Below, piece after piece: positions 2,352 to 4,753 of a stretch of DNA of 34,247 nucleotides. The notes under the pieces are model-generated. The model was not told where the DNA came from, ran no database searches, and saw only the letters and a list, made by a program, of their open reading frames with translations. The first letter of the stretch is position 1. Every line of letters starts with the position of its first letter. Source of the DNA: a virus; the IMG/VR virus record IMGVR_UViG_3300020411_000751, positions 1-34,247 of that record; one strand, given 5' to 3'. A program made the position numbers and the translations under genes.

Positions 2352-2503
2352 TTTCCTTGCCTGTTGTAAGATTTAAAACTTCTTTTTTTGGATTTGTTCA
2401 TAGAACTAAATTTTGGTCTACGACTAGCTATACTAGTCTTCTTAAACTTTGCCCTTGTTTCATGGGCAACCTTTTCTGTATTAAATTTTTTCTTCTTAGC
2501 CAT
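2348..2503 (-). CDS. Small very basic protein, 51 aa
   Basis: Read directly from ATG 2503 to TGA 2348. The product starts MAKKKKFNTEKVAH and ends KSKKRSFKSYNRQGK. It is extremely rich in Lys, Arg and Ser with no hydrophobic core, which suggests nucleic-acid binding and disorder. It is coupled to the following membrane gene by an ATGA overlap. No strong ribosome binding site precedes it, so initiation may rely on an unstructured leader. Function unknown. Confidence 0.6.
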   Translation of the reverse strand: MAKKKKFNTEKVAHETRAKFKKTSIASRRPKFSSMNKSKKRSFKSYNRQGK

Positions 2504-2596
2504 TTGTAGTATGCTAACGAATATTTAAGACTTTTCAAGATATGCTTTTTTTAAGCTCTATCGCTTGTTCAACTCCACTAGTCATCTGACGATGAT

Positions 2597-2654
2597 GGTT
2601 TTTGCCCCCACCCATCGAATGATGGATGTGGGAAAAGAGTAGGTGGTCACCTAC
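2597..2654 (-). other. Hairpin pair after the small terminase gene
   Basis: Two hairpins lie just past the small terminase stop. GTAGGTG/CACCTAC (2639-2654) has a two-base loop. CCCAC-CCATC-GAAT-GATGG-at-GTGGG (2607-2632) is followed on the minus strand by GGCAAAAACC. There is no T-run, so an intrinsic terminator is not supported. An RNA processing or protein site is more likely. The minus-strand motif GGTGGGGGCAAAAACC recurs near 4474-4488. Confidence 0.4.
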
Positions 2655-2657
2655 ACT

Positions 2658-3029
2658 TTAACTTAGGTCGATGTTAATCTTTATATCGCCTTGAATATTG
2701 TGAGCTACCTTGTCCGGTGCTCTCAATCCAACTCTATCTAGGATGTCCCTACTAGCTTCGAGCTGAACATACTCACTTCTCGCTCCTGAAGACAGGTCGA
2801 TAAGTTTCCTAGACGCACTTACTGCACCAAGTCCTAGAGTATTTGCTATACTTCGTTGCATATAACTCTGTACCTTTGGTAATCGTAGTGTGCGACTTGC
2901 ACTTACTCTCCCTGCTTCTTCGCTTCCTTTACTTGAATATCCAGCTGTTTTAGCTGCTTCCTTGATGCTACATCCAGTTGTTACGATAGTATCAACTAGC
3001 TTCTTTTGTTTCTCTGTTAAGTCCGTCAT
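2658..3029 (-). CDS. terS: Terminase small subunit
   Basis: A 123-aa protein whose N-terminus (LTEKQKKLVDTIVTTGCSIKEAAKTAGYS, residues 4-32) is the helix-turn-helix of phage small terminases, which recognises the packaging start. The middle is Ala/Ser-rich and helical, suited to ring formation, and the C-terminal tail (about 105-123) would contact the large subunit. It is the first gene of the minus-strand packaging operon. An in-frame TAA lies just upstream of ATG 3029, so this start is forced. The start codon sits beside one arm of an 11-bp inverted repeat and overlaps a plus-strand promoter candidate. Confidence 0.82.
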   Translation of the reverse strand: MTDLTEKQKKLVDTIVTTGCSIKEAAKTAGYSSKGSEEAGRVSASRTLRLPKVQSYMQRSIANTLGLGAVSASRKLIDLSSGARSEYVQLEASRDILDRVGLRAPDKVAHNIQGDIKINIDLS

Positions 3030-3034
3030 ATAAC
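3006..3034 (+). promoter_or_regulatory. Candidate plus-strand promoter into the structured noncoding region
   Basis: TTGTTT (3006-3011), a 17-bp spacer, then TATAAC (3029-3034), a five-of-six match to the -10 consensus. The predicted start is near 3041, immediately before the first hairpin of the structured region. It overlaps the beginning of the small terminase gene on the other strand. Confidence 0.45.
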
Positions 3035-3097
3035 GCTTTTATTATTCTACCCCTAACTGTTCGTAGTGGCAGAATTTCTCCTTGTCAAGCGTTATAT
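3028..3097. repeat. 11-bp perfect inverted repeat between divergent operons
   Basis: ATATAACGCTT (3028-3038) and AAGCGTTATAT (3087-3097) are perfect complements separated by 48 bases. Each arm carries a TATAAC -10-like element facing its own direction. The left arm overlaps the small terminase start codon. It could be an operator for a regulator binding both operons, or the base of an RNA stem if transcription starts upstream. Confidence 0.6.
3042..3075 (-). promoter_or_regulatory. Candidate minus-strand promoter for the terminase operon
   Basis: On the minus strand, a -35-like CTGCCA is followed after 17 bp by TAGAAT (3047-3042), five of six to the -10 consensus. Transcription would start about 3035, leaving only a few bases before the terS ATG at 3029, so the message would be nearly leaderless. 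A perfect TTGACA also lies at 3089-3084 but lacks a good -10. Weak call, chosen partly from position. Confidence 0.3.
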
Positions 3098-3360
3098 TAG
3101 GACTTTAGTGGTTGTTGCTACGCACAACACTATATCTGGTAGTCAAGAACCTACGGTTCTTAACGATCTCCCTTGGAACGATAACATTAAGATTAGAATA
3201 AGGAATCGCCAAAGGCGATGCTTTGGTTCCCCATACGCAGTTTTCACTCTAAAGGCAATCTGCACAGCGACAGATTGCTATTCGCTAAGGACTCGCCTGA
3301 CTGTTGGTAAACCAACATCTAGGCATCGTCCTACGCTATTAATTAATAAGGATGAAACCC

Positions 3361-3485
3361 CTGCGTTACTCGAAACGCAGGAAGCTGTGCTTCCTCTTGC
3401 CCAAGGGCAATTCACCATCCTGATAAGGGCGTTTCTGCGTTACTCGGTACTGCTATGGGGCCCCCACACACACGGGAGTTACTCG
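3361..3485 (+). repeat. Three copies of GTTACTCG within the structured region
   Basis: GTTACTCG occurs at 3365-3372, 3439-3446 and 3478-3485. The first two are part of a longer 12-base direct repeat, CTGCGTTACTCG (3361-3372 and 3435-3446). The first copy is half of an 8-bp hairpin. The second could instead pair with ACGCAG at 3235-3240, giving a possible long-range contact between domains. Confidence 0.6.
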
Positions 3486-3670
3486 CTTGTATCACGAGTT
3501 TGCCTCAATGGGAATGCCCTTCGCTTCGCTTCGGCGAGGACACGAAGGTCGCACACAAGGTGCAACCCCTGTGTCGCATTCAACCATTGAGCTTTGCCTC
3601 GTGATGACTGCTCGAGGTAATCCCATGAGTGTTAAATGATATGGGTTAATTAAATAACTAGGAGGATGAT

Positions 3671-3871
3671 ATGAATATATCTGAAAAAGCTAGAGATTTG
3701 ATAGCTTACTTCAAGATTCGTGAAGATAGTGATAAAATCAAGCGAGTTGAGGAGTTAGCTGTTAAAAGAGATGTAGCTGAATCGGTAGGTAATACTGATG
3801 AAGTTGCTATCATAGATAGTGAGTTAACTAACTATGGTGAAATAAATCCAATTAAACAAAAAGGAGTATAA
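3671..3871 (+). CDS. Hypothetical protein, 66 aa
   Basis: Not recognised. Small, charged and probably all-helical (EKARDLIAYFKIREDSDKIKRVEELAVKRDVAE), with no membrane segment. An excellent AGGAGG (3660-3665) precedes the ATG. It is the first protein gene after the structured noncoding region and is probably on the same transcript. It ends one base before the next gene, so the pair form a short operon closed by the terminator at 4398-4438. Confidence 0.75.
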   Translation: MNISEKARDLIAYFKIREDSDKIKRVEELAVKRDVAESVGNTDEVAIIDSELTNYGEINPIKQKGV

Positions 3872-3872
3872 T

Positions 3873-4385
3873 ATGGATAATGTGAAAAACATATACAAAG
3901 ACGATCCTGAAAGCAGATTGCTTAATATGGAATTAGTCCTTGATGATAATGAGAAAGCTATGATTGATGGTGTAAAAACTTTTGTACAATCAATCATTAC
4001 ACCTTTCGTAGATTGCCAAGATTGGGCTAGAATAGCTGAATGGAATTTTGATTCAGTTTATGGTTCAATGTATAGACATGACGAAATGTGTAATTCTTCG
4101 TTGGATAAATCCAAAGAGGAATTGAAAAAGTATACTTCAGAAGATGTAGGTACTGAAATCTCTAAAGGTAAATTATCTACTGCTTTATTCAAGGTTAAAG
4201 CACAAACTTTAAACTGTAGAAGAAGTGGATTAATTGTTAAAACTTTAGAAGATGAGTATAAGAAAATCTTTGATAAAGATTATGTACCTAAATCTAAAAG
4301 AGGCAATGTCACAGATAAAGTTTATGTGGACAAAGCTGAAAAAGATATGATGATAGCTGAAGCTAATAAGCTGTTAGCTGTTTAA
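3873..4385 (+). CDS. Hypothetical protein, 170 aa
   Basis: No family recognised. The protein is soluble, mixed acidic/basic and predicted helical. Cysteines occur at about residues 49, 70 and 113 but form no metal motif. It has a Lys-rich C-terminal part (KSKRGNVTDKVYVDKAEKD). A ribosome binding site (AAAGGAG) overlaps the end of the upstream gene. It is followed directly by a strong terminator, so it is the last gene of the unit that begins with the structured RNA region. That makes it a candidate partner of the RNA, by context only. Confidence 0.8.
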   Translation: MDNVKNIYKDDPESRLLNMELVLDDNEKAMIDGVKTFVQSIITPFVDCQDWARIAEWNFDSVYGSMYRHDEMCNSSLDKSKEELKKYTSEDVGTEISKGKLSTALFKVKAQTLNCRRSGLIVKTLEDEYKKIFDKDYVPKSKRGNVTDKVYVDKAEKDMMIAEANKLLAV

Positions 4386-4397
4386 TATCAAAAAATT

Positions 4398-4438
4398 AGC
4401 CCTTGTATCTCTATTAGTGAGGTATGAGGGCTTTTTTT
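4398..4438 (+). terminator. Rho-independent terminator of the first early unit
   Basis: AGCCCT (4398-4403) pairs with AGGGCT (4427-4432). Inside it TATCTC (4406-4411) pairs with GAGGTA (4419-4424) through one U-G pair. Seven T residues follow (4432-4438). The U-G pair and the T-run fix the direction as plus. Confidence 0.88.
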
Positions 4439-4444
4439 ATCGTG

Positions 4445-4461
4445 TTTAGAATCATTCTAAA
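4445..4461. promoter_or_regulatory. 17-bp perfect palindrome, operator-like
   Basis: TTTAGAAT-C-ATTCTAAA is fully symmetric about 4453. It is nested in a wider inverted repeat, CGTGTTT (4441-4447)/AAACACG (4468-4474). It lies between the terminator and the promoter at 4510-4537, a fitting place for a regulator site; the phage encodes two Cro/CI-type proteins. No binding partner can be assigned. Confidence 0.5.
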
Positions 4462-4473
4462 GAGGCAAAACAC

Positions 4474-4488
4474 GGTGGGGCAAAAACC
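4474..4488 (+). repeat. GGTGGGGCAAAAACC motif, intergenic
   Basis: The same motif with one extra G is on the minus strand at 2597-2612, also intergenic and also just after a hairpin. A looser version, GAGGGGTAAAAACC, is on the minus strand at 12575-12588. Together with the nearby palindrome it fills the 176-bp gap 4386-4561, which also holds a terminator and a promoter. Meaning unknown. Confidence 0.4.
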
Positions 4489-4509
4489 TGTGAGGTGCTA
4501 CCGAATAGG

Positions 4510-4537
4510 TTGCATCCACAATTAATAAGTGTATAAT
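4510..4537 (+). promoter_or_regulatory. Sigma70-type promoter for the second early unit
   Basis: TTGCAT (4510-4515), 16-bp spacer, perfect TATAAT (4532-4537). The start is predicted near 4544, with an AAAGAGG ribosome binding site before the ATG at 4562. It sits downstream of the terminator and palindrome, so it opens a separate early transcription unit. Confidence 0.7.
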
Positions 4538-4561
4538 AATAAAAATAGAAAGAGGTAAACA

Positions 4562-4753
4562 ATGTGGAATAAAATCCAAAATTGGCTAATGAATGTATTA
4601 GCTAAATGGATATGGATCATAATTATGTTTCCTATCCGAGCTGTTATAGGTCTATGTATTGCTGTAAGCAAACATATGCCAGAAAAAGTAGAAGTTCCTT
4701 ATGAAATTAGGAAAAAAGAAAAAGAACCAAATGGAGTTAAACAATGGTTCTAA
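4562..4753 (+). CDS. Small membrane protein, 63 aa
   Basis: One hydrophobic helix at about residues 15-35 (KWIWIIIMFPIRAVIGLCIAV) is preceded by a Trp-rich start and followed by a charged cytoplasm-type tail (KKEKEPNGVKQWF). It is the first gene after a clear promoter and carries a good AAAGAGG site. It overlaps the next small membrane gene by 10 bases. Function unknown; early phage membrane miniproteins often alter host transport or exclude other phages, but nothing here shows that. Confidence 0.7.
   Translation: MWNKIQNWLMNVLAKWIWIIIMFPIRAVIGLCIAVSKHMPEKVEVPYEIRKKEKEPNGVKQWF

Follow-up and report, generated by a model that had tools for sequence, protein, structure and literature searches.

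The stretch analysed here (the window) is the whole of the virus record IMGVR_UViG_3300020411_000751 of IMG/VR, positions 1 to 34,247 (34,247 nt). The phage is related to Pelagibacter phage EXVC031P Hodr, its terminase small subunit (TerS) being 59% identical over 99% of its length; at the DNA level, the match to isolated phages was limited to the terS end of Hodr. Leftward genes include terS, an HNH gene (phrog_96) and an open frame at 3-1442 that we read as the terminase large subunit (TerL). The rightward genes are of replication type and encode a ParB-like partition-protein homologue, DUF932, a DnaA C-terminal domain, YqaJ and SSB. A search of the window for tRNA and tmRNA genes gave none, and the cumulative GC skew turns at about 3450-3750. 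An earlier reading of this DNA, made from the letters alone (the sequence-only reading), had pointed to a G+C-rich, hairpin-packed stretch lying between divergent genes. This description was borne out: the region is flanked by terS and by two oppositely directed ORFs, its G+C content is 42-52% compared with ~30% in the surroundings, and 3112-3655 is packed with stems (Table 1).

Table 1. Features of the terS-RNA region locus (positions in the window)
Feature	Position	Strand	Basis or remarks
terS, terminase small subunit	2658-3029	-	Pfam Terminase_2, E 2.9e-10; PHROG terminase small subunit
Candidate terS promoter, TTGACA-17-TACGAA	3060-3088	-	Between RNA and terS; TTGACA here in most relatives
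Large modular structured RNA, ends approximate	3112-3655	- (probable sense)	Covariation, partner swap, covariance model, minus-strand fold, RNase P-calibrated strand test
terS-proximal domain, motif AACGAUC (plus reading)	3132-3220 (limits approximate)	-	Sequences; module counts
Core domain	3229-3460	-	Closing helix CCCCAUA-GCAGU/ACUGC-UAUGGGG (3449-3460/3229-3241); three paired variants; minus-strand fold
Domain D3, 5' domain on the minus strand	3466-3645	-	Covariation; covariance-model matches
Conserved internal loop, one side GCAAAG (minus)	3592-3597	-	Alignments; other side GCAAA at 3499-3503
66-aa gene, invariably next on the side away from terS	3671-3871	+	Synteny
170-aa gene, invariably after the 66-aa gene	3873-4385	+	Synteny
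Intrinsic terminator ending the 66-aa/170-aa unit	4398-4438	+	14-pair stem, then T run

Family searches with the 66-aa protein (PHROG, Pfam) gave no match. The 170-aa protein is predicted to be all-helical, with four helices (AlphaFold2 pLDDT 88.5); a PDB fold search gave no match at E ≤ 0.001, and only weak matches to uncharacterised phage proteins. Members of its family are 165-228 aa long in relatives and belong to no PHROG or Pfam family, and the 170-aa gene still follows the locus where the RNA sequence is unalignable. One subgroup (L002 2753-3098, L006, L008, L010, L012) has an additional short ORF, hydrophobic and transmembrane-like, inserted between the 66-aa and 170-aa genes.

Relatives were collected in searches with terS, the 170-aa protein and motifs conserved in the RNA region. 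They comprise 81 distinct versions of the region, which measure 250-650 nt (257-652 nt as excised) and lie between terS and the 66-aa/170-aa gene pair. The order terS(-)-RNA region-66aa(+)-170aa(+) was found in 196/196 loci uncut by a contig end, a count that contains overlapping and redundant loci and is not a number of independent phages; the other 26 of the 222 loci lacked only a flanking gene, their contigs ending near the RNA region. Hodr and the more distant terS relatives carry hairpin-rich intergenic regions at the equivalent site (L001 5331-5667, which is phage Hodr, and L063, L064, L065, L067, L069 and L074), with no alignable match to the RNA. A GUGGA...UCCAC(A)nACGAU-like hairpin is repeated in several of these. 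Cellular genome contigs contained seven terS relatives (46-58% identity), none with a match to the RNA model.

Base pairing in the region is kept through compensatory change, and this is very well supported. Double changes were scored in D3, the domain nearest the 66-aa gene. When the window-derived structure was placed on a sequence-only alignment, 17 D3 pairs were changed on both sides, against a shuffled mean of 10.3 (0/500), with 57 double-change cells against 20.0 in shuffles (0/500). In the minus-strand consensus fold of the 3469-3641 domain, 26 of 49 pairs were changed on both sides (15.6 shuffled, 0/500), with 93 double-change cells (33.9 shuffled, 0/500), and slid controls gave 8-14 pairs. 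A partner-swap test, which works without aligning the strands, was applied to individual stems. Stem H2 paired better with its cognate strand in 27/27 cases (-17.5 versus -10.1 kcal/mol for non-cognate strands, 0/2000 permutations), as did stem H0 in 26/29 (0/2000 permutations); the variation in stem H1 was too small to discriminate. The core closing helix occurs among relatives as GCAAU/AUUGC (39), GCAGU/ACUGC (9) and GCGAU/AUCGC (1), all perfectly paired. A tree-aware covariation test of our own, which has little power, returned few significant pairs, owing to the closeness of the sequences. On the fitted alignment there were three, all Watson-Crick; on the unfitted one there were four, one of them a misaligned non-pair.

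Folding z-scores were rejected as proof. The region gave -5.1 on the plus strand and -8.1 on the minus strand (20 shuffles), and a coding stretch of the same phage gave -5.0. Since these values are similar, the case rests on covariation and not on folding energy. The compensatory changes among homologous loci, in D3, the core helix and H2/H0, support the claim of a large structured phage RNA that the sequence-only reading had made.

D3 consists of a closing helix (3617-3632/3466-3482), a stem (3598-3605/3491-3498), the conserved internal loop, a further stem (3576-3591/3504-3517) and inner arms. Its covariance model matched 35 of the 60 loci searched, with E values of 1e-45 to 1e-28. Two D3 forms occur among relatives, one with AUCAYGAG and a UUUGC/CUUUGC loop, and the other with AACAAGG and an ACUCC/ACUCCCC loop (plus reading). 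They are unrelated in sequence and have a common architecture of closing helix, stem, conserved internal loop, long stem and inner arms; in type II relatives the GCAAAG/GCAAA loop is replaced by another conserved loop. Within 3469-3645, a GNGG following CACACACG has two possible partners, a CCNC just upstream and another CCNC at the distal end of D3; this second CCNC also takes part in a hairpin adjoining the 66-aa gene. These alternative pairings possibly represent a switch or strand exchange.

The other modules vary. The terS-proximal domain is swapped for other modules in relatives, and the region as a whole is a mosaic, with 12 combinations of four module features. Within the core domain (3359-3448), two copies of TGCGTTACTCG (GAGUAACGC on the minus strand) stand on either side of a hairpin of variable sequence, and relatives retain both copies even as the hairpin between them changes. 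A layout of three domains closed by long-range helices had been proposed earlier. One of these helices, 3491-3498/3598-3605, is real and conserved; the proposed boundaries held only in part, as 3098-3103/3328-3333 crosses the covarying helix 3229-3241/3449-3460, and 3349-3354/3416-3421 is absent from the minus-strand fold.

The sense strand of the RNA is probably the minus strand, directed toward terS. An A.C mismatch on the plus strand is a G.U pair on the minus strand, so that an excess of A.C on plus favours minus sense. Folds were computed without allowing G-U pairs, so that neither strand was favoured, and each mismatch lying between Watson-Crick pairs was scored. The A.C:G.U ratio of 1x1 mismatches was 20:5 over the whole region, compared with about 18:14 in shuffled sequences, and 17:1 in D3. 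Single departures within otherwise intact helices comprised 79 A.C and 62 G.U (internal 35:25). The minus strand had the lower MFE in 23/24 relatives and the lower consensus energy in 12/12 alignments, and the composition of its unpaired bases (A.35, U.30, G.23, C.12) was RNA-like, on this strand only.

As a yardstick, 30 alphaproteobacterial RNase P RNAs, whose sense strand is known, were run through the identical script. On the sense strand, G.U:A.C was 27:8 for 1x1 mismatches and 165:143 for single departures (internal 77:57); this strand was more stable in 28/30, and its unpaired bases included A.37 and G.30. The RNase P sense strand thus behaves like the minus strand of the phage region, making minus sense probable. 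Individual stems illustrate the pattern: type II H1 occurs as AACAAGG/CCUUGUU and AACAAGG/CCUCGUU, and the partner of the conserved CACACACAC alternates between GUGUGUG, GUGCGUU and AUGCGUU. Covariance models of both strands scored alike, with a mean bit score slightly higher on plus, and part of the A.C excess could stem from a strand bias in mutation. A count of G-U pairs (98 versus 41) was discarded, having been made on a structure from the plus-strand fold and hence biased, and is superseded by the strand-neutral counts. The sequence-only reading had placed the RNA on the plus strand on account of a UUCG loop and G-U pairs; neither fixes the strand, and the four calibrated indicators favour minus.

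None of the promoter assignments at the locus is firm. Counterparts of the candidate terS promoter were found in Hodr (TTGACA-17-TATACT) and in L061 (TTGACA-16-TATAAT), and the plus-strand candidate proposed earlier (TTGTTT-17-TATAAC) sits inside the start of terS. Scanning the minus strand upstream of the RNA 5' end gave scattered candidates, none consistent, and no terminator was found after the RNA on this strand. The palindrome CTTGTCAAG at 3081-3089 reads TTGACA on minus and TTGTCA on plus, and in many relatives TTTAGT lies 16 nt downstream of it on plus; it may be the shared -35 of a bidirectional promoter. If the sense is minus, the RNA is co-oriented with terS and would immediately precede the terS promoter on the late-gene strand. 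Co-transcription with 3671-4385 then does not follow, the gene pair being divergent from the RNA. What stood of the earlier proposal that the RNA is made with these two genes is therefore their adjacency, which holds wherever the contig extends, and not their co-transcription. A published pelagiphage transcriptome (PMC12753301) covers other phage groups.

In a cmscan of the window and 15 relatives, none of the 4227 Rfam families reached its gathering score. At the looser cut-off of E ≤ 10, applied to 2500-4700, nothing relevant was found, and GOLLD, ROOL and pRNA were not among the matches. The OLE covariance model likewise gave no match, either at gathering score in the window and the 15 relatives or at E ≤ 10 on 2500-4700, and a search of the accessible literature found no account of this RNA. 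The region almost certainly encodes a large, folded phage RNA of a new kind, and the suggestion of a possibly new class made in the sequence-only reading fits the outcome of the Rfam search.

In style the RNA stands next to GOLLD and ROOL, given its size, phage location, conserved and variable domains and lack of a conserved frame. An earlier comparison with these RNAs thus held for style, and failed for membership as judged by covariance models. To our knowledge, very few large structured phage RNAs have been described, and what GOLLD and ROOL do is debated. Like GOLLD, the RNA is large, highly structured, phage-encoded and possibly late-expressed. GOLLD contains one well conserved region and a variable one (Kretsch et al. 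2025, PMC12286853), and here the D3 fold is conserved and the other modules vary. Unlike GOLLD, it matches no Rfam model, is usually smaller (250-650 nt, whereas many GOLLD RNAs exceed 800), has a conserved domain in two interchangeable forms, and occupies a fixed site beside terS; GOLLD lies near tRNA islands, and this window has no tRNA. Self-assembly into a nanocage is a further mark of GOLLD. ROOL is also a phage-encoded ornate RNA of similar size, but its model gave no match, and the present RNA is not near tRNAs and has domains that are present or absent in a modular manner.

Two further systems bear comparison. The phi29 pRNA, which binds the portal and is required in packaging, is a phage RNA encoded among DNA-packaging functions, but it is much smaller (about 174 nt), its model gave no match, and the present phage has TerS and TerL. 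HK022 put RNA and long structured leaders are structured RNAs at the start of a phage operon; put elements are cis-acting and about 70 nt long, whereas the RNA described here is 250-650 nt and modular.

Several other explanations of the region were weighed. A coding gene is extremely improbable, and this reading was rejected: a frame at 3066-3590 is open for 174 codons in the window, but L003 and L005, the closest relatives, do not keep it, insertions and deletions vary freely from one relative to another, and there is no family match. It is very unlikely that the hairpins are functionless palindromes, maintained because one stem arm serves to repair mutations in the other (template switching) and because mobile hairpins spread. 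Template switching repairs short hairpins, but covariation here extends to stems that enclose >100 nt, loop sequences are conserved, and the architecture persists across two unrelated sequence types; the features that suit such an origin are the mosaic gain, loss and swapping of hairpins and the high ratio of double to single changes. Hairpins acting at the DNA level next to terS, where the skew turns, either in packaging (cos/pac) or as a replication-origin element, also appear unlikely. The site adjoins terS, upstream of the HNH gene and terL, the phage encodes the DnaA C-terminal-domain protein and SSB, and compensatory pairs outnumber single wobble changes, with neither wobble type strongly dominant. 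However, RNase P RNA likewise has compensatory changes in excess of either wobble type alone, divergent transcription explains the skew turn equally well, and stems spanning 100-230 nt with conserved internal loops would be surprising in a DNA signal.

The region may instead act on the plus strand, either as a structured leader, cis-regulatory or for antitermination, at the 5' end of the 66-aa/170-aa operon, or as an RNA released from the operon transcript by processing, to which the two proteins bind. We regard this as a possibility of rather low probability. The gene pair invariably begins 20-30 nt beyond the region and is closed by a terminator, C(UUCG)G loops occur on plus, and the confidently modelled all-helical 170-aa protein could bind RNA. 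In addition, the A+T-rich conserved 100-nt stretch adjoining terS carries a recurrent plus-strand promoter candidate, T/GTGTCA-16-TTTAGT. Every calibrated strand indicator nevertheless favours minus, and the size and module swapping would be unusual for a cis-regulator. A leader of the gene pair also need not include the RNA, as a promoter-like site lies immediately before the 66-aa gene in some relatives.

The best explanation, to which we would give about an even chance, is a free-standing, late-expressed, trans-acting structural RNA that works in the manner of GOLLD and ROOL and is a member of neither. Such an RNA would be made late in infection and serve as a trans-acting folded scaffold, perhaps a homo-oligomer, for virion assembly, for packaging of the genome or for the chemistry of host takeover. 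Its tertiary contacts would be held by rigid stems whose internal loops are purine-rich and conserved (GCAAA/GCAAAG, GAGUAACGC), and the variable hairpins would be tolerated decorations. The one pointer toward packaging is the neighbouring gene. With rather low probability, the RNA may represent a new class with interchangeable domains, encoded next to the terminase genes in abundant marine phages, whose members assemble with themselves or become part of the packaging machinery.

The strand of palindromic RNAs, as this case indicates, must be tested rather than assumed. The fixed address beside terS, ~80 natural variants, naturally deleted or swapped domains and the distant, isolated relative Hodr, with a different hairpin-rich region at this site, make the role of a large phage RNA testable by comparison and deletion. 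If the RNA does belong to such a packaging-associated class, it would be part of the virion-assembly pathway in phages with ordinary TerS and TerL.
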